Assembly: GCA_945905815.1 (NCBI GenBank)
Contig: CAMDQH010000031.1
Span: 1 to 32,377, forward strand
Direction of reading: 5' to 3'
From: Bacteriovorax stolpii
GTDB lineage: Bacteria; Bdellovibrionota; Bacteriovoracia; Bacteriovoracales; Bacteriovoracaceae
Length of the DNA stretch: 32,377 nt
Below the pieces are notes generated by a model. The model was not told where the DNA came from and made no database searches. It worked only from the letters and a program-made list of their open reading frames with translations. Positions within the stretch are counted from its first letter, which is position 1, and the number at the start of each line of letters is the position of its first letter. This document shows, in pieces, positions 1,908 through 12,856 of this stretch. The translations under genes were made by a program, and so were the position numbers.

Positions 1908-3683
1908 CTATTTAGCAAGTAGAGGAAACTTAAATGCAGGACAGGTCTTTTTAATTAAATCGTAAAGCTCTTCATCCTTTTGAAATTTTAATCTTGTACA
2001 GGACCATTCACTTGATAAATGACCTTCTTGTCCGTTGGGTATGTATGATCCATAATCATACTGCCAGATGTCCTCGGATTTAAGCTTACAAACCTGCAAA
2101 ACACCACCCACAAGTGCCTTCACAGGGACAACCGAACCAGGCTTTCTCTCATCTTTATCAGAGGTGACTTTAGATTCAATATATAGCCCTTCACCTTGAT
2201 AAGAAAAATCCGCATCAGGATAGGTTCGCTTATTTGTTGGTCTGACCTCTACTTTATTTTTTGCCGGAATTTCTTTACCTACTCCAGAAACCACTCTCCC
2301 GCTTTTTGTATCAACTGTAATTTCTTCGCCAGTTGTAAGCTTCATAAAAATTTTATCGTCTCGTTTTTTGACCGAAGGAACATTTTTTCTTGGAAAAAAT
2401 GTAAGCTGAGTCATTCTCAGATCAGTTGACAAATATCTCTCCACTAACTTTTTATCTTTAAAGACCTCTTTTACTGGCATATCCACAATCTCAAAAACGG
2501 ACTCTTTGCCTCGCCCCTCATATGAGTCCGAGTATGTTCTCTGTGGATACATTGGCGCCATCTCTTCGCTGCTGTATTCCACCCCTTCCTCGATGTACGA
2601 ATAACCTTGTGGACCCATCCTGTCAGCGTCTATACCGTATCCCCCAACGACTCTATGCTCTTTGTCTTCACCTTGCTGTTGGTAAGTTACATCGATAGAA
2701 ACTCCGTTGTCAGAATCTGAAAAGACGCCTTGAGAGTACTTCTCCCGAGCATTTCCCTTCTGATTTCCTGCGCAGAAATCTTTTTCAGTCACTTTGTTTT
2801 GATCAATTGGTTCTGAAGCTTCTTCAGGTGATAAAATCTCATCAAGATTCTGCATTTTTTTCTCTTGCTCACATTTCTCACATATAACTTTGCTATTTAG
2901 CTCAACAGTTACAACTGGAATTTCGTTTACTTTATCAACAGTCTTGACGATCTCTTCTTTTAAACCTTCGTCTTCAACAATCAAGCCCTTATCCACAACC
3001 TGAACTTCTTTACTCTTGTTGTCGACTGCCGCCTTCCCTGGAAAGTTCGCTTTAACAGCAGCAACTTTCTTTTTTAAGTTTGAACACATGCCAGTCTTAG
3101 ACTGAAAGGTCCCCAGCTCACAGATATCGTGTACCAGCCCAAATATCTCATCAGCAAGAGGAGCAACCTCTTCTTTACCTAGATCCTTAGCAAGTTCTTC
3201 AAGCGTCATCCCACTCTTTTCAAATTTCTGCTGACACTGAGAGAATGCCGAGTTTCTTTGGGCCTTGGTTTTTGCTTCAATGCAAAGTTTCGAACCAAAT
3301 AAAACTGGCTGACAAAGTAGTTCACCTTTACCGCAAGTCTCAGCAAGTTTTTGATACTGAGGATTAGATTTTAGCGGTGATGAACAATATGTTTTTTTCT
3401 GACCATCAGTCGTAACTGTCTTTTTAATGCTCGGCCAACCGGCATAGAAGCAATTAAACTCACCCGACGCAAAAGCTTGATCGACTAGAAAAAAGCGAAG
3501 CCTGGCAGTAAGTTCTTCAGTCTCATTTTCATTTTTTAAAACTTCTTGGATAAAACCTTTGTAGGCATTAAGAACTTGTACTTTTTGTTTTATGGATAAT
3601 TGTTGATATTCTTGCGGGGTCACGAGATTTCCGGCGAAAAGCAACGAGGGAAGAAGACTCAACAATAATAAGAATAATTTCAC
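1908..3683 (-). CDS. large secreted protein of unknown function
   Basis: A 591-residue protein that I do not recognise. It starts with a GTG (AGGTAGGT just upstream) and has a clear signal peptide, MKLFLLLLSLLPSLLFAGN, so it should be exported. Residues about 20-230 are cysteine-containing and helical; the centre (about 230-300) is acidic and Lys/Glu/Val-rich with a CEKCEQEKK motif; the C-terminal half is rich in Gly, Tyr, Ser and charged residues (for example YEGRGKESVFEIVD) and ends in a segment with two more cysteines. Cysteines throughout suggest disulfides in the periplasm or on the surface. No catalytic motif was seen. It stands alone, convergent with yciO. Confidence 0.75.
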   Translation of the reverse strand: MKLFLLLLSLLPSLLFAGNLVTPQEYQQLSIKQKVQVLNAYKGFIQEVLKNENETEELTARLRFFLVDQAFASGEFNCFYAGWPSIKKTVTTDGQKKTYCSSPLKSNPQYQKLAETCGKGELLCQPVLFGSKLCIEAKTKAQRNSAFSQCQQKFEKSGMTLEELAKDLGKEEVAPLADEIFGLVHDICELGTFQSKTGMCSNLKKKVAAVKANFPGKAAVDNKSKEVQVVDKGLIVEDEGLKEEIVKTVDKVNEIPVVTVELNSKVICEKCEQEKKMQNLDEILSPEEASEPIDQNKVTEKDFCAGNQKGNAREKYSQGVFSDSDNGVSIDVTYQQQGEDKEHRVVGGYGIDADRMGPQGYSYIEEGVEYSSEEMAPMYPQRTYSDSYEGRGKESVFEIVDMPVKEVFKDKKLVERYLSTDLRMTQLTFFPRKNVPSVKKRDDKIFMKLTTGEEITVDTKSGRVVSGVGKEIPAKNKVEVRPTNKRTYPDADFSYQGEGLYIESKVTSDKDERKPGSVVPVKALVGGVLQVCKLKSEDIWQYDYGSYIPNGQEGHLSSEWSCTRLKFQKDEELYDLIKKTCPAFKFPLLAK

Positions 3684-4063: not shown

Positions 4064-4130
4064 ATGAACTCCCTCGGGTGTGGAACTTATCGGAGAGAAA
4101 GTGAGAGTCAGTTAGGTCGTTGGGTAAAAA

Positions 4131-4158
4131 AAAGCCCCCGGCGCAAGACGAGGGCTTT
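4131..4158 (-). terminator. Rho-independent terminator, the tRNA-Leu terminator of the uninterrupted locus
   Basis: On the minus strand an AAAGCCC/GGGCTTT stem around a TTGCGCC-containing loop is followed by a run of eight T. It lies just outside the left att repeat, where the terminator of tRNA-Leu would be if the element were absent. A near copy is found at 10095-10122. Confidence 0.75.
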
Positions 4159-4179
4159 AAAAGCATTCATACGTTTTTG

Positions 4180-4196
4180 TGGTGCCCGGTGAGGGA
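4180..4196. repeat. att site, distal copy (tRNA 3'-end remnant)
   Basis: TGGTGCCCGGTGAGGGA is identical to the last 17 nt (including CCA) of tRNA-Leu at 10145-10161. After this point the sequence diverges from the tRNA, marking the left edge of the element. Confidence 0.85.
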
Positions 4197-4337
4197 TTGC
4201 TTAAACTAGGTACACTTTCATAAGTAATAGGTATTAAAAAATAACGATCCTTAACAATTCTCCCTCTTAAAACTAACAACCTCAGCCTTACCTTAATTGT
4301 GATCTTCTATGTCCTATTGTGAGCTTTAATGTATGAC

Positions 4338-4358
4338 TTTTACCCCATTTCTACCCCC
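4338..4358 (+). repeat. candidate integrase arm site, left copy
   Basis: A 21-bp TTTTACCCC-N4-CTACCCCC sequence that recurs in the same orientation at 10006-10026 with 18 of 21 bases identical. It lies 141 bp inside the left att repeat. Such subterminal direct repeats suit arm-type sites for a tyrosine integrase; the role is inferred. Confidence 0.45.
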
Positions 4359-4385
4359 CATATCCACTGATTCGGTTGCTAAAAA

Positions 4386-4416
4386 CCCTTGCAAGGGATT
4401 AAACCCCTCGTGAGGG
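4386..4416 (+). promoter_or_regulatory. tandem palindromic operator upstream of the HTH regulator
   Basis: Two related palindromes, CCCTTGCAAGGG at 4386-4397 (perfect) and CCCTCGTGAGGG at 4405-4416 (5-bp arms around GT), are spaced 19 nt start to start, each followed by AT. They fit two turns of the helix and lie 44 nt before the HTH gene, so they are the likely self-regulatory operator. Confidence 0.5.
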
Positions 4417-4459
4417 ATAATGAGTCAGGAGGGAGTAAAAGCTGACGATAGGACTCCAG

Positions 4460-4750
4460 ATGAAAACATTATTAGCTCCAAATTTGAAGCGACTACTTAA
4501 AGATCGTGATCTGACAGTGGCCCAGCTATCAAGGGCCACGAAAGTGCCTGCCCAGACATTAAACAACTGGTTGGCCGGGCTTGAACCAAGAAGTATGACC
4601 CAGGTTAAAATCATCTCTCAGTTTTTTGATATGAGTCTTGATGAACTTGCTTATGGTGAAATTAAGGTTAAAGATCAGAATAAAATAGATCAATACTCCG
4701 ATGAAATCAATGCTGGAATATTTGAAGTAGTACTTAGGAGAGTGAAGTGA
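4460..4750 (+). CDS. XRE/Cro-type helix-turn-helix regulator
   Basis: A 96-residue protein with a helix-turn-helix of the XRE/Cro type at about residues 18-40 (LTVAQLSRATKVPAQTLNNW) followed by a MSLDELAYGE-like segment common in small repressors. The C-terminal 30 residues are short and charged. It is probably the repressor of the element and the palindromes at 4386-4416 are its likely target. The ribosome-binding site before the ATG is weak. Its stop overlaps the GTG start of the lipoprotein gene by 4 nt (GTGA), so the two are translationally coupled. HTH call is firm; the repressor role is inferred. Confidence 0.8.
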   Translation: MKTLLAPNLKRLLKDRDLTVAQLSRATKVPAQTLNNWLAGLEPRSMTQVKIISQFFDMSLDELAYGEIKVKDQNKIDQYSDEINAGIFEVVLRRVK

Positions 4751-5196
4751 TTAAAAATCTCTTTTTTATCGGGGTTATATCATTTCTAATTCAAGCCTGT
4801 GCGACGAAACCAACGAAGCAAGAATTAGACAATGCAAATTATGGGCTTCATCCTTCTGAATCTGATATAGAAAGAATCTATAAAGAAACTGTAAAACAGA
4901 CGCTCATTGATCCAGAATCAGTTCAAACAAGAAATATTCAAGAGCCTAAGAAGTTTTGGCGAAAATCTAATGATTTTCTTCAAGCATATTGGATTATATG
5001 TGGAGAAGTAAATGCAAAGAACAGACTCGGTGGATATACGGGGTTTAAACCTGCAATTATTTGGGCAAACAAAAGTGGTTCTGGAATGGAAGAGACTATA
5101 CCCGGAAGTCCCGGCTGCATTTTAGGAAATATGATTCAAGATGTGGATCCTTGTGGTTTCTACAGCAATCAATCTGACTTTTTCAAATGTAAATAA
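4747..5196 (+). CDS. small lipoprotein carried by the element
   Basis: A 149-residue protein that starts with GTG behind an AGGAG site. It has a lipoprotein signal peptide ending at Ile15-Gln-Ala-Cys18. The mature part includes an IDPESVQTR motif (about residues 56-64), a W-I-I-C-G-E-V-N-A-K-N segment and GGYTGFKP, a pattern I associate with small bacterial lipoproteins of unknown function. The C-terminus holds several more cysteines. It should be anchored to a membrane on the periplasmic side. Coupled to the HTH gene and followed after 18 nt by a second lipoprotein, it is probably cargo; a surface role such as exclusion of phages or related elements is possible but not shown. Confidence 0.75.
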   Translation: MIKNLFFIGVISFLIQACATKPTKQELDNANYGLHPSESDIERIYKETVKQTLIDPESVQTRNIQEPKKFWRKSNDFLQAYWIICGEVNAKNRLGGYTGFKPAIIWANKSGSGMEETIPGSPGCILGNMIQDVDPCGFYSNQSDFFKCK

Positions 5197-5214
5197 TAAA
5201 AGAGAGGATCCAAA

Positions 5215-5874
5215 ATGAAGTATTCAAAACATTTACCAATACTATTTATTGCACTAATCTCAACTTCTTGTGCAAACATAAGAACTTCACAAACGCCTCT
5301 GCCGACAGCCAAATTCATGAAAGCGAGGACTACTGCTACTATAACTAAAACATCCGTCTCAAATATCAGTATTATCAATCCAGGCGAAAAGAATCAAGAT
5401 CCAGTTCTGTGCTTTATGAATGTATCTGCATGGGGTACACAACATGCGAAGAAAGAGGATTTGGTACAGTCATTAGTGCAAGAAGCATCTAAGTTAAATG
5501 CGGATTACCTCTATCTTGGTGATTTTAAATCTCAAATTGCTGGATCAATTTCTCAGCATATTGGTTATGGAATTGTTACAAACAATCCAGTCTATCAAAA
5601 TTATCTTGGTGGAACTGCATGCATTAAGTCGGAGGTTACGCTCGGTATAGTCCATGAGAAAGGCAAGATTCAATATGTCCAAAAGAATTCTTTAGCCGAG
5701 AAACAGGGAATGAAGGAAGGCATGCAAATTATAGCAGTAAATGGAAGGGCAATTGCTTCTGATGAATTTACAATGCAAATTGAAATCAATGCCAAGTCTA
5801 AGGGAGATCAAACAAATGTTGAAATTATTGATCTCAAAGGAAATAAAAAATCATTTGATTTTAAACTAGAATGA
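5215..5874 (+). CDS. lipoprotein with C-terminal PDZ domain, carried by the element
   Basis: A 219-residue protein with a lipoprotein-type signal peptide (lipobox LISTSC, Cys19; the -3 residue is Ser, so slightly atypical). The middle, about residues 60-135, has the pattern ASKLNADYLYLGD, like small envelope lipoproteins that carry an A-x-x-x-x-A-[DN] helix-strand unit. Residues about 142-219 form a PDZ domain: TLGIVHEKG, NSLAEKQGMKEGMQIIAVNG and a final strand pair. PDZ domains bind C-termini or exposed strands of partner proteins, so this protein may recruit or sense an envelope protein. A GAGAGGATCC stretch precedes the ATG. No protease domain accompanies the PDZ. Likely in one operon with the two upstream genes. 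Confidence 0.75.
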   Translation: MKYSKHLPILFIALISTSCANIRTSQTPLPTAKFMKARTTATITKTSVSNISIINPGEKNQDPVLCFMNVSAWGTQHAKKEDLVQSLVQEASKLNADYLYLGDFKSQIAGSISQHIGYGIVTNNPVYQNYLGGTACIKSEVTLGIVHEKGKIQYVQKNSLAEKQGMKEGMQIIAVNGRAIASDEFTMQIEINAKSKGDQTNVEIIDLKGNKKSFDFKLE

Positions 5875-5943
5875 ATAAACAGATTTTCTAACAATACTTC
5901 GAATAGGTCAAAGCACTGTTCAAGTAGGAAGTCATGTATGTTC

Positions 5944-5965
5944 GTCATATTCGTCACAACGTCAT
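5944..5965 (+). repeat. three-fold GTCAT array, copy 1
   Basis: GTCAT at 5944, GTCAC at 5953 and GTCAT at 5961, spaced 9 and 8 nt; a fourth GTCAT is at 5931. The same three-part array with the same spacing occurs at 8749-8770. Probably binding sites for an element protein. Confidence 0.5.
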
Positions 5966-6093
5966 CTGTGCCCATGAGGCGACGAGGGGGGACTATCTAG
6001 TAACTACTTGAAAGGCCATAAATCGTCGGTTACTCGAGTTCATGCGTGACTCAAATTTTTAAAGCAAAGCCCATTGTACTAATCGTCAGAGCC

Positions 6094-6123
6094 TTGACAC
6101 TTTAACAATCAACTAGACATAAA
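6094..6123 (+). promoter_or_regulatory. candidate promoter of the 216-residue protein
   Basis: A perfect TTGACA at 6094-6099 is followed after 18 nt by CATAAA (4 of 6 to the -10 consensus). The start at 6150 would have only a 15-20 nt leader, in keeping with the absence of a Shine-Dalgarno sequence there. Confidence 0.35.
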
Positions 6124-6149
6124 AGCACCTCTATTGTTTAACATGCGAT

Positions 6150-6800
6150 ATGAAGCAAAATCACGATATATATATTTCAAAAGTAATTCTTGATCATGGA
6201 AATAAACTCGTAAGTTCACACCTTACTCAACTAACCGATAAAGAATTTTATAAAAGTCTGAACGTAATTAAAAGTATCCTTGAGAATTTTGAAAGCCATT
6301 GCTCTCCTTATTCCCATTTTGATAAGGCGAGGATGAAGTCCTTTCAGAAAACTTTACTTGAGAACATACTATTCGAGGCTTCTAAACCAATAAGTCTTAA
6401 GAGTGATGGAATTAACTTATGCCAGGAAACATATACTCCATTCATCTATGTTAAGAGAAAAGACTTATCTAAAAGGACTCTTGATAGCTTCAAATGGGAT
6501 TTTTCATGGATGACTTACCCATTAATTAAAAGTTACATGAAAAAAGAAATTGGTACTAAATACCGAGACGATTTAGATAGGATTTTAAATCGCATCCAGA
6601 TTAAGAATCCAGCCTACTTTCGCCTTCTCGGATTTAAAAAAGTAGATTGTATAGACATTAAAGAAATTGAACAAAAATTCAATAGATTAAAAAAAGAACA
6701 TAATATAACTGAAAAAGATTACTACCAAATTGATGACAAGGACCACGACGAATATATGAAAGATATCGAAAGATCTTGTTATCTTCCTTCAAAGCAGTAA
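6150..6800 (+). CDS. unknown protein of the element (216 aa)
   Basis: I do not recognise this protein. It is 216 residues, Lys-rich, soluble, with no signal peptide and no membrane segment. Visible features are an N-terminal helical part, a FKWDFSWMTYPLIKSYMKKE segment at about 122-141, and a C-terminal part with an acidic patch (YYQIDDKDHDEYMKDIERS). No ribosome-binding site precedes the ATG. The codon use is A/T-rich compared with the chromosomal genes. It sits between the lipoprotein cargo and the replication/excision genes, after a 275-nt gap with its own putative promoter, so it may be independently expressed cargo or a replication accessory protein. Confidence 0.6.
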   Translation: MKQNHDIYISKVILDHGNKLVSSHLTQLTDKEFYKSLNVIKSILENFESHCSPYSHFDKARMKSFQKTLLENILFEASKPISLKSDGINLCQETYTPFIYVKRKDLSKRTLDSFKWDFSWMTYPLIKSYMKKEIGTKYRDDLDRILNRIQIKNPAYFRLLGFKKVDCIDIKEIEQKFNRLKKEHNITEKDYYQIDDKDHDEYMKDIERSCYLPSKQ

Positions 6801-6847
6801 AAAAAAATAATTCTCCAGAAGGAAGTTTTCTAAACAAATCATAGTAT

Positions 6848-6868
6848 CCTCCAGATCACTTTAGGAGG
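6848..6868 (+). promoter_or_regulatory. hairpin that can mask the ribosome-binding site of the AlpA-like gene
   Basis: CCTCC at 6848-6852 can pair perfectly with GGAGG at 6864-6868, the Shine-Dalgarno sequence of the AlpA-like gene (ATG 6874), across an 11-nt loop. This could keep excisionase translation low. Confidence 0.4.
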
Positions 6869-6873
6869 TACTC

Positions 6874-7050
6874 ATGAGTAATTTATCACAATTCCTCACA
6901 ATCAAAGACGCTAGCATCATGCTCAACGTGAAAGTTAGTTGGCTTCGCAGACAAGTCTTTCTCAGAACTATTCCATTTCAAAAACTTGGTCGTTTAGTTC
7001 GATTCAATAAGGAGGAGCTTGTGATCTGGCTTAACCAGCAAAAAGCCTAG
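6874..7050 (+). CDS. AlpA/excisionase-like HTH protein (58 aa)
   Basis: A 58-residue protein too short for many gene finders: it begins MSNLSQFLTIKDASIMLNV and continues with KVSWLRRQV, IPFQKLGRLVRFNKEELVIWL. This is the winged helix-turn-helix layout of AlpA/HTH_17 excisionase-like proteins: helix (LTIKDASIMLNV), recognition helix (VSWLRRQV), wing (IPFQKLGRLVRF) and a final helix. AGGAGG lies 5 nt before the ATG, a very strong site. Such proteins act as recombination directionality factors or activate integrase genes. Its position before the ATPase, in an element with a tyrosine integrase, fits an excisionase. The stop codon lies in a perfect inverted repeat. Confidence 0.8.
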   Translation: MSNLSQFLTIKDASIMLNVKVSWLRRQVFLRTIPFQKLGRLVRFNKEELVIWLNQQKA

Positions 7051-7069
7051 ATACATCATCGTATCTAGG
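7046..7069 (+). terminator. inverted repeat over the AlpA-like stop codon
   Basis: CCTAGATAC and GTATCTAGG are perfect 9-bp arms around a 6-nt loop; the TAG stop of the AlpA-like gene is inside the left arm. No T run follows, so it is not a classic terminator; it could attenuate transcription, protect the mRNA end or bind a protein. Confidence 0.4.
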
Positions 7070-7112
7070 AGGAACTGAGGGTTTGATCTCGTAATTAGTC
7101 GTTACAACTATC

Positions 7113-7129
7113 ATACCAAATTTTGGTAT
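7113..7129 (+). promoter_or_regulatory. palindromic operator candidate upstream of the ATPase gene
   Basis: ATACCAAA and TTTGGTAT are perfect 8-bp arms around a single T. It lies 69 nt before the ATPase start in a non-coding region. A second, weaker repeat (GTTTC/GAAAC) is at 7144-7160. Likely protein binding sites near a promoter. Confidence 0.45.
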
Positions 7130-7197
7130 TAATTAAAGCCTTGGTTTCGAAAATTGAAACACAAGCAAAGTAGGCCGTTGGGCTAAAAGGAACTAGT

Positions 7198-8736
7198 ATG
7201 TCCGGTATTAATCATAATGAATCAAAAATGACCGAATCTATGGATGATGATTCAGAATCATCGAATCACCAAAAAAAAGGACGGTCTCAACTCGAACTTT
7301 TCTTTAAAAACTTCCACCCTATTTATCAACCCGAGTTTTTCTCAAATTTTGACGGGGGTAACTTTGTAACAATCCATATTGGGAAAAGAATGGTGACATT
7401 CAGACTTGGCTCTAGGATGTTTAGTGATTTTGTCATTAAGTGCCTTAGAGAGTTTGGATACAGGGGTGGACAAAGTAGAAAAATGGCAGAGTCGATTATT
7501 GATGAATTCCATGGTAATGTGGTTTTAAGTGGTATTAAAAAGAAAGTGCATATTAGGGCCAGCAAGTTTCAGGATATTGTTTTAATAGATTTGGCAGATA
7601 AGGAAGGTCGATTCGTTGAAATTGATAGAAATGGATTTAGAATTAAGGATACTTCCCCGGTTTCATTTCTTACTCTACCAAAACAACTTCCTCTTCCAAT
7701 ACCAGAAATCATTCCATTACTTGATTTTCTTGAAATCTGGAAAAAACTGTTCAACTTCAGGGATGAAAACGCTTTTTACATGGCACTAGCATATGTTGTT
7801 AAGATTTTACTGCCTTCAAGTGGGGCAAATCCAATTCTTCTATATGAAGGGCCACAGGGAAGTGGGAAAAGTACTGCATCCTCGGGGACAAAGCGACTGG
7901 TTGACCCAACTGAGCCTATGTTATTAAGTCCACCAAAATGTGAGCAAGATGTTTTGGTCATGGCGAGTAACGGGTATCTGTTATCACTAGATAATTTGTC
8001 CTATCTTTCACCTGATATGTCTGATGTTTTTTGCCGTGTTGCTACTGGTGGCGGTATTTCTCATCGCAAACTTTACACTGACGATGATGAAAAGGTTTAT
8101 GATATCGCAAGACCAGTTATCTTTAATGGAATTGAGGAACTTACAGAGAGGCCAGATTTCATTGAAAGAGCACTTATACTTCACTTGAAGCCTATAAGTA
8201 AGGAACATCGGATTTCGGAGTCAGAATATTGGAAGAACTTTGAGGAGTTATACCCTAAGCTTCTTGGTGGTATTTATACATTAGTGTCCCAAGCTATTAA
8301 GCATTTACCAGATATTCGTAATACAAATCTTCACAGGATGACAGAGTTCCATCGTGTCGGACTGACGTTAGATAGGGCATTTGGGTTCAAAGACGATTAT
8401 TTTACTGAAGTTCTAAACGCTCACCATGATGAGAAATTTCAAAATATTTTTCAAAATGATCTCTTTTGCCAAACGATCCTGCAAACTTTAGAGAAATTGC
8501 CCAGTAAAGAACTCAAAGGAACAATATCAGAACTTATGGATAAAATTTTCAAATCAAAACACCATAGGAACTCTGGTTTTCTTATTCCGAAAAGTCCACG
8601 GCAATTTTCTGGAAAAATTCAGAGGCATAAAATGGTCCTGGAAAGTAATGGGATTGAGTTTGGAAACCTCTCAAGAACTTCAAAAAGACGTGAAATGTTT
8701 ATTAGGCTAAGGGATGAATCTATGGATTCACTTTAA
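7198..8736 (+). CDS. phage/ICE-type P-loop ATPase (replicative helicase-like)
   Basis: A 512-residue protein. The N-terminal 150 residues are an accessory domain (FVEIDRNGFRIKDTSPVSF at its end resembles the family's 'GW.v....PVkF' border). Residues about 175-400 are a P-loop ATPase with Walker A GPQGSGKST at 218-226, a Walker B-like YLLSLDNLS near 261-269, the motif CRVATGGGISHRKLYTDDDE and a sensor-like RPVIFNGI and ERPDFIERAL segment. These motifs match the 'ATP-binding protein' family found in integrative elements and prophages next to primases or excisionases and related to helicases of the D5/DUF927 type. It probably unwinds or remodels element DNA. AAAGGA precedes the ATG by 7 nt. No primase domain is fused. 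Confidence 0.8.
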   Translation: MSGINHNESKMTESMDDDSESSNHQKKGRSQLELFFKNFHPIYQPEFFSNFDGGNFVTIHIGKRMVTFRLGSRMFSDFVIKCLREFGYRGGQSRKMAESIIDEFHGNVVLSGIKKKVHIRASKFQDIVLIDLADKEGRFVEIDRNGFRIKDTSPVSFLTLPKQLPLPIPEIIPLLDFLEIWKKLFNFRDENAFYMALAYVVKILLPSSGANPILLYEGPQGSGKSTASSGTKRLVDPTEPMLLSPPKCEQDVLVMASNGYLLSLDNLSYLSPDMSDVFCRVATGGGISHRKLYTDDDEKVYDIARPVIFNGIEELTERPDFIERALILHLKPISKEHRISESEYWKNFEELYPKLLGGIYTLVSQAIKHLPDIRNTNLHRMTEFHRVGLTLDRAFGFKDDYFTEVLNAHHDEKFQNIFQNDLFCQTILQTLEKLPSKELKGTISELMDKIFKSKHHRNSGFLIPKSPRQFSGKIQRHKMVLESNGIEFGNLSRTSKRREMFIRLRDESMDSL

Positions 8737-8748
8737 TCACTTACTTTT

Positions 8749-8806
8749 GTCATAATTGTCATTTCGTCATTGGAAAAAGTAGATGACCAATGACAGTTCT
8801 GACGAA
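8749..8806 (+). repeat. three-fold GTCAT array, copy 2, with inverted partners
   Basis: GTCAT at 8749, 8758 and 8766 have the same 9- and 8-nt spacing as the array at 5944. They are followed by inverted ATGAC units at 8783 and 8790 and TGACGAAG at 8799-8806. GTCATTGG (8766-8773) and CCAATGAC (8787-8794) are perfect 8-bp arms with a 13-nt loop. Possible origin iterons or recombination-protein sites between the ATPase and integrase genes. Confidence 0.5.
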
Positions 8807-8850
8807 GTTTTTCAAGGTTCATTACTTTGACTTCCTAACGTGCTATTACC

Positions 8851-8877
8851 AGCTATCCTTCACAACGAAGGATAGCT
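8851..8877 (+). terminator. perfect 11-bp hairpin between the ATPase and integrase genes
   Basis: AGCTATCCTTC and GAAGGATAGCT are perfect arms around ACAAC, followed by CTTTG only, so the T run is weak. It may end the ATPase transcript or regulate the integrase. Confidence 0.55.
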
Positions 8878-8935
8878 CTTTGACAATAGAATATGGAAGA
8901 TCACAAAAGGTAATGGCTTTCTAACAGGAGTCATT

Positions 8936-10081
8936 ATGGAAATTAGAAATGGAAAATACAGAGAAATGATCTGGATGGGTAATAAGCTCATTAAAGGGCC
9001 TTACTTTAAAAGAAAGACAGATGCAGTAACTTGGAAAGCCAACAAGCTAAATGAAAGAACTAAGATGCAAGTTCTTGGGGATGATTACAAAACGCAAAGT
9101 AAGCTTTCTTTTTCCGAGTTTGCAATGAATTGGCTTGAGTTAAAAATAAGGCCTTCAAAAACTCAAAGCACTTACAAAGATTATGAGCGACTTCTTCGAT
9201 GCCATTTGCTCCCCACGTTGGGTACCAAATCGATGAAAGAAATTAGAATCAAAGATGCTGATCAGTTAGTTTCTTGGCATATCAAAAACGGGAAAAGTCC
9301 TAAAGGAGTACAAGATATTTTGACTCTTTTAAAACAGATTCTAAATTATGCTGAAAGAAGCGAAGAGATTGTTAAAAATCATCTTAGGCATTACAAAACT
9401 CCTAAGATTCCTGAAAAGCACTTCAAGTATTGGTCGGATTCTGAAATCAACAAATTTTTCCTCTGTAGTCGATTGGATCCCTACTATCCATTCTTTGTCA
9501 CAGCTTTCTATACGGGAATGAGAAAAGGAGAAATTGCAGCACTTAGATGGGAGTGCATTGATTTCAATAATAATCTGATCACTGTTAAAGGTACCTTAGA
9601 TAAATTTGGTCATAGAGAATCTACTAAATCTGGTCGAATCAGATACGTTCCTATGAATGACTTCTTAAAAGGAATCATTATTGAGCTTTTCAAAAAGCGG
9701 TCTACCAATACTGAATACGTATTCTTTTTCAAAGATCAGCCAATAGATACTAATCATCTCTATCGAGTGTTTAAGAGCTACCAAAAGAAGGCCGGGATCA
9801 CGAACCAAATCAGGGTACATGATACGAGACATACGTTTGCATCTCAGTACATGATGAAGGGTCTTGGAAGCCTTTATGACTTAAGCCAGATTTTAGGCCA
9901 CTCAGATACTAAAATGACACAGAGGTACGCACATCTTTCCCCACTTCACTTATCTAAAGCTACTCAGAACCTAAAATTTGGAATGGAAGGGGAACTTTCG
10001 AAAGATTTTACCCCTATCCTACCCCCGAAGCATTGTGGAGCAGATTTAGATGTGGGCTTAATGCTCATAGGAAGTGTGTAA
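8936..10081 (+). CDS. int: tyrosine site-specific integrase of the element
   Basis: A 381-residue tyrosine recombinase. Residues 1-50 form an Arm-type DNA-binding region, 57-155 a SAM-like core-binding domain (LSFSEFAMNWLELKIRPSKT, then STYKDYERLL), and 165-350 the catalytic domain. Catalytic residues can all be seen: Arg196 in GMRKGE, His295 and Arg298 in HDTRH, His322 in LGHSD and the nucleophile Tyr331 in QRYAHLS. AACAGGAG lies upstream of the ATG. The gene points at the tRNA-Leu whose 3' end forms the att site, the usual arrangement. The last 30 residues (from about 352) overlap the right-end 21-bp repeat. Confidence 0.95.
   Translation: MEIRNGKYREMIWMGNKLIKGPYFKRKTDAVTWKANKLNERTKMQVLGDDYKTQSKLSFSEFAMNWLELKIRPSKTQSTYKDYERLLRCHLLPTLGTKSMKEIRIKDADQLVSWHIKNGKSPKGVQDILTLLKQILNYAERSEEIVKNHLRHYKTPKIPEKHFKYWSDSEINKFFLCSRLDPYYPFFVTAFYTGMRKGEIAALRWECIDFNNNLITVKGTLDKFGHRESTKSGRIRYVPMNDFLKGIIIELFKKRSTNTEYVFFFKDQPIDTNHLYRVFKSYQKKAGITNQIRVHDTRHTFASQYMMKGLGSLYDLSQILGHSDTKMTQRYAHLSPLHLSKATQNLKFGMEGELSKDFTPILPPKHCGADLDVGLMLIGSV
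10006..10026 (+). repeat. candidate integrase arm site, right copy
   Basis: TTTTACCCC-N4-CTACCCCC, 18 of 21 bases identical to the left copy at 4338-4358 and in the same orientation. It lies inside the 3' end of the integrase gene, 118 bp from the right att repeat. Confidence 0.45.
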
Positions 10082-10094
10082 CTGGCTGAAAAAA

Positions 10095-10122
10095 AAAGCC
10101 CCTGGCGCAAGGCAGGGGCTTT
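10095..10122 (-). terminator. element-borne terminator for tRNA-Leu
   Basis: On the minus strand, perfect 10-bp arms AAAGCCCCTG/CAGGGGCTTT with a CCTTGCGC loop are followed by a run of nine T. It stands directly downstream of tRNA-Leu and is a diverged copy of the terminator at 4131-4158 (27 of 31 bases identical over 10096-10126 and 4132-4162). It may also end integrase transcription on the other strand, where the trailing T run is short. Confidence 0.75.
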
Positions 10123-10144
10123 AAAAATACGCTCGTACATTTTA

Positions 10145-10161
10145 TGGTGCCCGGTGAGGGA
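10145..10161. repeat. att site, tRNA-proximal copy
   Basis: The 17-bp TGGTGCCCGGTGAGGGA repeat here is the true 3' end of tRNA-Leu (acceptor strand, part of the T arm and CCA) and matches 4180-4196 exactly. Confidence 0.85.
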
Positions 10162-10227
10162 CTCGAACCCCCACGCTTGCGCACTAGGTTCTAAGCCTAG
10201 CGTGTCTACCAATTCCACCAACCGGGC
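10145..10227 (-). tRNA. tRNA-Leu(UAG)
   Basis: The minus strand folds as a type II tRNA: acceptor GCCCGGT/ACCGGGC, discriminator A and encoded CCA; D loop AATTGGTAGA; anticodon stem CTAGG/CCTAG with loop CTTAGAA giving anticodon TAG (at 10191-10193); a short variable arm with a CGC/GCG stem; T arm GGGGG-TTCGAGT-CCCTC. It reads CUA and other CUN leucine codons. The 3' end is the integration site of the element, and its sequence is fully preserved, so the tRNA should be functional. Confidence 0.95.
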
Positions 10228-10282: not shown

Positions 10283-12856
10283 TTATGCAGCCTGACCTGA
10301 GCTTCCTGGCTTTTGGGGCGCTGCGCCCTTCGCTTTATCTAGGTCTTTTTTCATTTTATCAAACTGATTCTGAAGGGCAATCTTGTCTTGGCGCAACTTA
10401 TTAGTCTCTTTTTTCATTTCGCCTAACTGATTTCGATTCTCAACCAGATCCTGGGTAAGCTTACGAACGTTATTTTCAAGATGGGCAGTTTTACCCTTAG
10501 TGCTTGTTTCATCAGCAACGATATCTTTCTTTTGGTTTTTTAGAGCGTCTTGGAGCTTAACTTCAAGTTCTTTTTGAATCATGATTTTTTGTTTTAACTG
10601 TGAATCCAGGAAATCATGCTGAAGCTGAAGCTTCTTCATGTCTTGATCCTGCTGTTGGTTACTTAAGTTTGCCAGCACTTCTTTCTTAGAATCATCCGCC
10701 GCTTTTTTGAGTTGTTGTTCAAGTTTGGCCTTGTCCACCTTAAGGACGTTCATGGCAGCTGAATCTAAAGCTAGCCTTTCTTGATATTTAGTTAAATCTT
10801 TTTTAGCTATTTCTAACTGATTTTTCATCTGATTATTGATTAGCTGTAAACGTTTGCTCTCGTCTTTTGATGAATCATCTTCGGTTTTGGCCCCAGGCTT
10901 TTGAATGATCTTCGTTTTATAAATTTCAATCATTTTTTCGTGGTTCATAACTTGTCTTTCTAGATCCCTGATCTGCTGAACCTGGTTTTGAGATTGACTT
11001 GCGGCCATAAGTTTACTGGTCTGATTAAGCTTCTTATTCAAATTACCTATTTCGAGAACTTTTTGTTCAACTAGTTTTGAAAAATCTTCTTTAGTTTTCT
11101 TGAACACAAGTTCTTTTGCTCTAAGGGATCGATTAATCTTATCAATCTCTGCAGAAAAGAATGTTTCTTTTTGAGACATTTCAATCCGCATTTTCCTAAG
11201 CTCAATTTCCTGCTCCCTCGATTCCTTTAGAAAGGTGGCCTCTTTCTGAAATACTTCTTCAAGTCTTTTAGTATCCTCTGCGCTCAGGCTTTTTTGAAGA
11301 GTCATCTTCTCCATAATTTCTGCTTTTAAAGCTTTGTCAGCAGAAGAAGATTCATTTTTACTAATAGCTGTTAATGTTGCGGCTTGAGCGGCTTGCGCTG
11401 CCTTCATTTGAATTTCTGACATTAGAGTCTTCGACTCTTTGAGTATTTTGACTTCACTCATAAGAGTTTTCATCTTAGACTTAAGAATTTCATTTTCAGC
11501 ATTAAGAGTAATTACTTTAAGATCAAAAGCTTTTTGAGCATCTTTACTCGCAGGAGTATCTACATCTATTTTATGCGAAGTTTGTTTGATAATCTGTGGA
11601 ATTTCAACATCGTTAAAATTTTTAAACTCTTCCTCGCTAAGATCATCCGCAGACTTGTTTAACTTAGAAGCGTAAGCGTGAAAACTACTCTTGATTGCAT
11701 CTGGCAATTCATTCTTTAAAGATGTAACTTTTAAATGATTTTCGCCTTTCTTTTTATCTTCAATCCCAGAAGATATCCGAAAGGCGTATTTTTCAACATC
11801 GAAGTCCTTAGGGCCAGAGATTTTAAAAGCCTTCTCTTCCTCTTTAGCACTGCCTTTAATAATGTTTATCACTTCTTCTTCAGCTTTACTTCCGCGAACA
11901 GTGGTCTTGAATTCTTCCTCTGCTGCTGAGGGGGGAAGAACAATTTTATCTGACAAATCACTAAGGGGTTGAGCATTTACTTGAAATGAGGTGATCCCTT
12001 CTGTTGGATAGCTTGTAATTGAGGCCGAGGCAGACAAATCATTAAATAATAGCCCACGATTTTCAGACTGAATCCTATCATCTTTAGTCCATAACCCAGT
12101 GATCACAGTTTTATTTACTTGACGTAGTAAGGTAAAATCAAAAAAATCACTCGATTTGACAGCAATATTTAAAAGGTACTCTTCTGCTTTTTTTGAAATA
12201 TTACTAGATAGGCTTGATGTTACGTCTTCTAAAAGAAGATCTTTGGTAAAAAAATGAAGTTGAACACCAAATACATCCTCAAAGTACCCATACATAACTT
12301 CAATTGGCATGCCCAATTTACTCTTATTCTTGAGCCCAGTCAGATACATGACTAAATGATCAAAAAAGGTTTTAATTGAAAGGCCACTCACGCCTTCAAG
12401 ATATGCACTTTGGACCATTTGATCGAGATATTCTCCCGTATTAAATGGATTCGTAATAATAAACGAACCTTTTTCTTTAAATGTGGGGTAATTATCACCC
12501 AAAGCAATTCCTCCAGACTCCTGTAGAAATTTATCCAGAATGAATGCACCTAAACTATTCTTCATCCAAAGTTCATCTAAAATGAGCTTACCATTTGAAA
12601 CAACAAAGTTCTGAAGATCTTCTACTGCTGTTAGAGAAATAATTTTTACATCTTTCTCTATAGTGTCGTACATATTACTTAAATTTGTAAAATCGTGAGT
12701 ATTCTTAGTCAGGACATGTGTCCATATGTGACTTGTATTGTCTGATTCAGGATCAACGATAACTATCTCTTTCTGGGCAAAGTAATTGGACAACTCTGGT
12801 GAGAGTTCACCAGCAAGGTTTAGAATGGCAAGTTTGGTTTTAACCATTTTGTCCAT
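10283..12856 (-). CDS. large coiled-coil protein of unknown function
   Basis: An 857-residue protein without signal peptide or membrane segment. Residues about 1-270 look globular with beta-alpha alternation (LAILNLAGELSPEL, IVIVDPESDN), perhaps a degenerate receiver-like fold. Residues about 330-430 are charged and low in structure. From about 440 to 840 there is a long heptad-rich coiled coil, heavy in Lys, Glu, Gln, Leu and Ala. The end is a flexible Gly/Pro/Ala tail (AAPQKPGSSGQAA). Its ATG shares one base with the stop of the upstream degenerate HD-GYP gene (TAATG), so the two are translationally coupled and probably act together. A structural or scaffold role is likely; the specific function is unknown. 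Confidence 0.75.
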   Translation of the reverse strand: MDKMVKTKLAILNLAGELSPELSNYFAQKEIVIVDPESDNTSHIWTHVLTKNTHDFTNLSNMYDTIEKDVKIISLTAVEDLQNFVVSNGKLILDELWMKNSLGAFILDKFLQESGGIALGDNYPTFKEKGSFIITNPFNTGEYLDQMVQSAYLEGVSGLSIKTFFDHLVMYLTGLKNKSKLGMPIEVMYGYFEDVFGVQLHFFTKDLLLEDVTSSLSSNISKKAEEYLLNIAVKSSDFFDFTLLRQVNKTVITGLWTKDDRIQSENRGLLFNDLSASASITSYPTEGITSFQVNAQPLSDLSDKIVLPPSAAEEEFKTTVRGSKAEEEVINIIKGSAKEEEKAFKISGPKDFDVEKYAFRISSGIEDKKKGENHLKVTSLKNELPDAIKSSFHAYASKLNKSADDLSEEEFKNFNDVEIPQIIKQTSHKIDVDTPASKDAQKAFDLKVITLNAENEILKSKMKTLMSEVKILKESKTLMSEIQMKAAQAAQAATLTAISKNESSSADKALKAEIMEKMTLQKSLSAEDTKRLEEVFQKEATFLKESREQEIELRKMRIEMSQKETFFSAEIDKINRSLRAKELVFKKTKEDFSKLVEQKVLEIGNLNKKLNQTSKLMAASQSQNQVQQIRDLERQVMNHEKMIEIYKTKIIQKPGAKTEDDSSKDESKRLQLINNQMKNQLEIAKKDLTKYQERLALDSAAMNVLKVDKAKLEQQLKKAADDSKKEVLANLSNQQQDQDMKKLQLQHDFLDSQLKQKIMIQKELEVKLQDALKNQKKDIVADETSTKGKTAHLENNVRKLTQDLVENRNQLGEMKKETNKLRQDKIALQNQFDKMKKDLDKAKGAAPQKPGSSGQAA

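Follow-up and report, generated by a model that had tools for sequence, protein, structure and literature searches.

The window analysed here, a 32,377-nt stretch of a Bacteriovoracaceae genome, contains a 5,965-bp integrated element that lies within positions 4180-10161 and is bounded by 17-bp direct repeats. Seven genes are present, all on one strand and all with intact reading frames, and they encode in order a CI-type helix-turn-helix (HTH) protein, two lipoprotein-like products (LP1 and LP2), a third cargo protein (U216), an AlpA-like protein, a P-loop ATPase and a tyrosine integrase (Table 1). The AlpA-like gene falls below the size cut-off of the first list of open reading frames and was located by reading the sequence together with its matches to HTH_17 (PF12728, E=2.8e-8) and to the TIGR01764 excise model (E=2.9e-8), both above cut-off. 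Searches of Pfam, PHROGs, NCBIfam and PADLOC match no phage structural, relaxase, conjugation or type IV secretion genes in the element, and assign U216 to no family. The gene set proposed in an earlier, sequence-only reading (integrase, excisionase-like protein, replication-type ATPase, HTH protein and three cargo genes, with no structural or conjugation genes) thus holds.

The repeat unit, TGGTGCCCGGTGAGGGA, is identical at the two ends and has no further occurrence in the 32-kb window when up to three mismatches are allowed. Its right copy is the 3' end of a tRNA-Leu(UAG) gene that is single-copy in the genome, the sole other match being 34 nt within tRNA-Leu(CAA), and the tRNA is restored upon insertion. 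Direct repeats of a tRNA 3' end around an int gene, with the tRNA restored, are the features of a tRNA-targeted tyrosine-integrase element. A second, 37-nt repeat (89% alike) covers the tRNA terminator, and since the terminator is duplicated along with the att core, the element supplies a replacement terminator, the host's original probably lying beyond the distal repeat.

Comparison with 129 genomes of the family Bacteriovoracaceae shows the site without the element. In one of these (G019, locus L023) a homologue of the host gene at 1275-1904 is followed directly by tRNA-Leu and then by a homologue of 10283-12856, and the flank at the distal att copy is similar to this empty site. In genome G021 the tRNA and the flanking genes are the same, and both integrase and ATPase are absent. 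The host flank includes the gene at 1908-3683, which also adjoins the 1275-1904 homologue in G021 and G025 but is missing in G019. A 54-residue integrase remnant with 67% identity lies beside the same tRNA-Leu in G012 (L025:7658-7819) and looks like the scar of an earlier element. We also note that in G021 and G016 (L021, L029) about 5-6.5 kb of unrelated genes separate the 1275-1904 homologue from tRNA-Leu, and that in G019 there is almost nothing between them, so that this interval appears to be a hot spot for the gain and loss of genes.

A further signature marks the two ends. Pairs of the form TACCCC-N5-TACCCC are found at 4341 and 10009, one per element end and nowhere else in the window, and in the longer form TTTTACCCC(N)5TACCCCC they begin at 4338 and 10006. 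No comparable shared signature was seen in 20,000 random pairs of 400-bp windows taken outside the element. The same paired layout with 11-bp spacing is present with other motifs at both ends of four sister elements that have att repeats of their own (TGAACCC in L078, AGCGCCA in L082, and imperfect repeats of the TAACCACA type in L074 and the TTAGCCCA type in L087). By analogy with integrases bearing arm-binding domains, the TACCCC pairs are probably integrase arm sites. A 24-nt inverted pair, with one copy near the left end and its partner just upstream of int, is a possible operator or excisionase site. The att repeats, arm sites, empty sites and absence of the cargo from the rest of the genus all agree with the proposal that a tRNA-Leu integrative element lies between exact 17-bp repeats, and on these sequence features the identity of 4180-10161 as an integrated mobile element is near certain.

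Table 1. Genes, repeats and putative sites of the element and its target tRNA
Feature	Position	Strand	Basis or remark
Terminator-like hairpin adjoining distal att copy, read as displaced host tRNA terminator	4126..4162		Repeat comparison
att core, distal copy, 17 bp	4180..4196		
24-nt inverted copy of sequence just upstream of int, near left end	4297..4320		88% complementary to 8883-8906
Probable integrase arm sites, left end	4338..4358	+	TTTTACCCCATTTCTACCCCC; two TACCCC, 11-bp spacing
CI/Cro-type HTH protein, probable repressor	4460..4750	+	HTH_26 and HTH_3 above cut-off
LP1, lipoprotein, phrog_2320 family	4747..5196	+	Eight-sequence alignment
LP2, lipoprotein-like, PDZ-like C-terminal part	5215..5874	+	Weak PDZ matches, E about 3e-4, below cut-off
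U216, protein of no recognised family	6150..6800	+	No family match in four libraries
AlpA-like/excisionase-type HTH_17 protein, 58 aa	6874..7050	+	Pfam HTH_17, TIGR01764 excise
P-loop ATPase, probable replication helicase/initiator	7198..8736	+	
Partner of 4297-4320, 30-53 nt upstream of int start	8883..8906		
Tyrosine integrase	8936..10081	+	Phage_integrase (PF00589) E=7e-32, Phage_int_SAM_3
Probable integrase arm sites, right end, within int 3' end	10006..10026	+	TTTTACCCCTATCCTACCCCC; two TACCCC, 11-bp spacing
Element-supplied replacement tRNA terminator	10090..10126		89% copy of 4126-4162
att core, tRNA-proximal copy, 17 bp	10145..10161		
tRNA-Leu(UAG), anticodon TAG, target gene, intact despite insertion	10145..10227	-	ARAGORN

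Relatives of the integrase (E<=1e-40) are present in 41 of the 129 family genomes, which suggests that Bacteriovoracaceae genomes hold many small tRNA-integrated elements. An AlpA-like gene lies near int in most of the 20 loci read, and both ends were found for five elements including that in the window (4.4, 6.0, 6.9, 8.8 and 9.2 kb). The replication gene differs from one to another, being the ATPase in the window, L078, L081 and L097, a DNA polymerase A in L074, a primase-polymerase in L084 and a DUF3987 primase in L085. The combination of integrase, AlpA and ATPase recurs at tRNA-Leu(UAG) in G132 (L078) and G102, and L078 (6.85 kb, with a 70-bp att repeat) is the closest to the window in layout. 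L078 also carries a gene resembling a terminase small subunit (TerS), with a weaker match, to phrog_309 (E=1.4e-6). Matches to the TerS family PF03592 were found at seven places in the family. Four of these seven (L085, L124, L125 and L127) are near Int and AlpA with no terminase large subunit (TerL) seen beside them, and are satellite candidates in Bacteriovoracaceae; the TerS matches of L085, L124 and L125 are confident and that of L127 is borderline. L085 combines a tRNA-Ala site with a DUF3987 primase, TerS, AlpA and Int, and L124 (8.3 kb) and L125 (6.9 kb) are at tRNA-Pro with TerS, AlpA and Int. L126 and L128 look like real phages from their neighbouring reading frames, and the seventh place, in G144, falls outside this sorting. 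The best relative of the window's HTH protein is in the TerS-bearing L125 (phmmer E=9e-27). In G109 the AlpA-ATPase module stands beside the CBASS genes for an oligonucleotide cyclase, E1-E2 and JAB (L097:998-4335), on a contig that ends before any integrase. By hhalign, U216 is not homologous to the unassigned genes that precede AlpA in L078 and L097, and a structure prediction for it was unusable (pLDDT 37). Among the other loci, L072, L073 and L076, from three genomes, have a near-identical layout in which two large genes (about 890 and 775 aa) precede int, with no tRNA seen in the stretch.

The ATPase is present in six of the 129 genomes and is assigned to no Pfam or PHROGs family, its sole PHROGs match having E=0.05; its profile finds only P-loop matches in the PDB, to ABC transporters and similar proteins, and a structure predicted from a two-sequence alignment was unusable (pLDDT 37). 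Among the residues that do not vary are the lysine of Walker A, a DN pair where Walker B is placed and sensor-type residues, with an arginine (R324) downstream, as expected of what is probably a replicative helicase or initiator. It is the only replication-type gene of the element, in which no primase domain was found; in the two Streptomyces plasmids examined, a primase-polymerase gene adjoins the ATPase gene. Within the family the ATPase is also found in the tRNA-Phe elements L095 (G157) and L096 (G099), where it adjoins a large gene at the serine-recombinase position (confirmed by Pfam for L095). The ATPase is thus a swappable module, used beside a second recombinase type. As the integrase grouping is also not firm, the suggestion of an undescribed family goes too far if a single family is meant, and the elements are better described as a modular pool than as one lineage.

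The lipoprotein genes follow the HTH gene directly, and the GTG start of LP1 overlaps the HTH stop codon by 4 nt. An alignment of eight LP1-family sequences has an invariant C18, DP.S and NAKN..G.Y.G, such that the family has the lipobox cysteine and the NAKNxxGxYxG core in common. Its members are in the tail-gene regions of phages KpF5, ES18 and LMessi and also on small plasmids of 4-6 kb, several of them typed mobilizable; in KpF5 and ES18 the gene directly precedes that for the tape measure, and ES18 gp20 is annotated as a 'possible moron'. None of the other 128 family genomes has a relative of LP1, and just one has a relative of LP2, a distant protein in L113 whose gene adjoins an HTH gene, an AlpA-type gene and the start of a primase. 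As judged from these sequences, the distribution of the LP1 family resembles that of lysogenic-conversion or exclusion genes, and an envelope or exclusion function of the cargo is plausible.

A scheme for the element can be proposed from its gene content. By homology, Int and AlpA are likely to excise it, the ATPase to replicate it and the HTH protein to repress it. As long as the element is integrated, the HTH protein would repress it, and the lipoproteins, translationally coupled, would be produced as a lysogeny-type cargo, changing the host envelope and most likely restricting competing phages. Upon induction, for which helper-phage infection would probably be the signal, the AlpA-like protein would act as directionality factor and the integrase would work on the core and the paired TACCCC arm sites to excise a 5,965-bp circle, whose replication the ATPase would drive. 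The helper phage would then package the DNA, and because the element has no terminase small subunit it would presumably do so through mimicry of the helper's packaging signal.

This scheme assumes that the locus is a minimal integrative element of phage-satellite type (PICMI- or PICI-like), which we regard as the best explanation, with a chance somewhat better than even. It is favoured because sister elements combine TerS, AlpA and Int and have no structural genes, and because parts of the set (the ATPase and relatives of LP2 and of the HTH protein) recur in other elements of the family. Several results weigh against it. The element itself has neither TerS nor a DUF3987/DUF5906 primase, and profile comparison detects no homology between its ATPase and DUF3987 helicases; relatives of the ATPase outside the family, at 23-30% identity, are mostly on small plasmids, with a single phage in the phage collection. 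In the integrase tree, of which the backbone is unresolved, the window is not joined with the TerS-bearing elements, is not firmly grouped with its ATPase-bearing sisters and joins L086 only at 80/87, and elements of its integrase clade also carry a HerA/TraG-like ATPase or Replic_Relax. No resident helper prophage is detectable, the host genome having no HK97-type capsid (PF05065) and no Terminase_6N TerL (PF03237), and limited pattern scans found no relatives in IMG/VR. The likeness to phage satellites noted in the sequence-only reading is supported indirectly, through the sisters and the PICMI prototype (PMC10803314), rather than by this copy itself. Among 12 genomes tested, a Terminase_6N TerL is present only in L112 (G145:C60), a possible helper prophage in a genome that also holds the two TerS-bearing elements L085 and L127; the TerS of L085 has no match on the contig with TerL of the same genome. 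Single-protein pattern scans of genome and viral contigs returned nothing but the G102 record, a Bacteriovoracaceae metagenome-assembled genome, and literature searches directed at satellites in Bdellovibrio or Bdellovibrionota gave no description.

The lack of TerS, of a satellite-type primase and of a detectable helper, together with the mostly plasmid-borne relatives of the ATPase, make a real rival of a small integrative plasmid, although we consider it less likely. Such a plasmid would comprise Int, an AlpA-like Xis and a plasmid-type ATPase and would depend for its movement on a conjugative element acting in trans or on transformation, phages having no role, and the integrase clade and the mobilizable plasmids with LP1 relatives fit this reading. 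However, the element carries neither a relaxase gene nor any recognisable gene for oriT processing, the relatives of AlpA, HTH and LP2 are in satellite-like elements, and a TerS-like gene is present in L078, a sister that has the ATPase. Less probable again is that the element is what is left of a larger island or satellite, stranded and no longer mobile after losing the gene for its packaging or transfer. The element does lack transfer genes of any kind and has a 275-bp gene-free gap (5875-6149), and the genus holds neither another copy nor a close relative of it, but its seven frames are intact, its att cores identical and the spacing of the arm-site pairs equal at both ends, and satellites without TerS are known (PICMI115, PMC10803314; some PICIs, PMC6092414). 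That these are fixed host genes beside a chance tRNA-end repeat is scarcely credible: the G+C content of the region (33-39%) is near the host value, but the integrase, the unique 17-bp repeat, the arm sites, the empty alleles in relatives (that of G019 being sufficient to refute it) and the absence of the cargo from other family genomes, save for the one distant LP2 relative, all contradict it, and in no related genome with these flanks was the same cargo found as fixed host genes without the integrase and ATPase.

Phage satellites are best known from a few bacterial groups. We put at about even the chance that the predatory Bacteriovoracia have a pool of modular phage satellites of their own, which carries envelope lipoproteins and CBASS from one predator to another and in which Int and AlpA would be combined with exchangeable replication modules (an orphan P-loop ATPase, DUF3987 primase, primase-polymerase or DNA polymerase A) and TerS would be optional. 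If true, this implies an active conflict between viruses and satellites within bacteria that invade other bacteria. The locus and its sisters provide testable systems for excision, for replication by an unusual ATPase and for the movement of defence and envelope genes between predators.

Among known systems, the PICMIs of Vibrionaceae (PMC10803314) are similar to the window element in size (about 6 kb), in having an integrase, a PF12728-type AlpA, a single replication gene and a few other genes, unknown or accessory, and in having no structural genes and no TerS listed; the satellite PICMI115, for example, measures 6,110 bp and comprises int, alpA, prim and three others, TerS not being among the genes listed (PMC10803314). 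In the PICMI model a DUF3987/DUF5906 primase is obligatory and integration is downstream of fis (PMC10803314), whereas the window has the integrase (PF00589) and AlpA (PF12728) with an unrelated P-loop ATPase as replication gene and tRNA-Leu as site, and lacking the primase and fis site it is not filed as a PICMI. PICIs (PMC6092414) likewise have a specific att site, an integrase, an AlpA-type regulator or excisionase, a replication module and accessory genes, and TerS is optional in them, some relying on pac or cos mimicry instead (PMC6092414); the window element has no TerS and its sisters L078, L085, L124, L125 and L127 have TerS or TerS-like genes. Unlike the PICIs, the window element has no recognised primase homologue or known phage-interference gene. 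The ATPase family is shared with plasmids of archaea, Alphaproteobacteria, cyanobacteria and Streptomyces, including the 12-kb Methanothrix plasmid pH6Ac and plasmids of Methylobacterium, Stanieria and Streptomyces, but pH6Ac, pM44602 and pFP11 (23-30% identity) are free plasmid records without the tRNA-integrated Int/AlpA layout. The phrog_2320 lipoproteins such as ES18 gp20 have the lipobox Cys, DPxS and NAKNxxGxYxG of LP1 and are encoded in phage tail-gene regions or on plasmids, whereas the LP1 gene is coupled to that of a repressor within an element of 6 kb.

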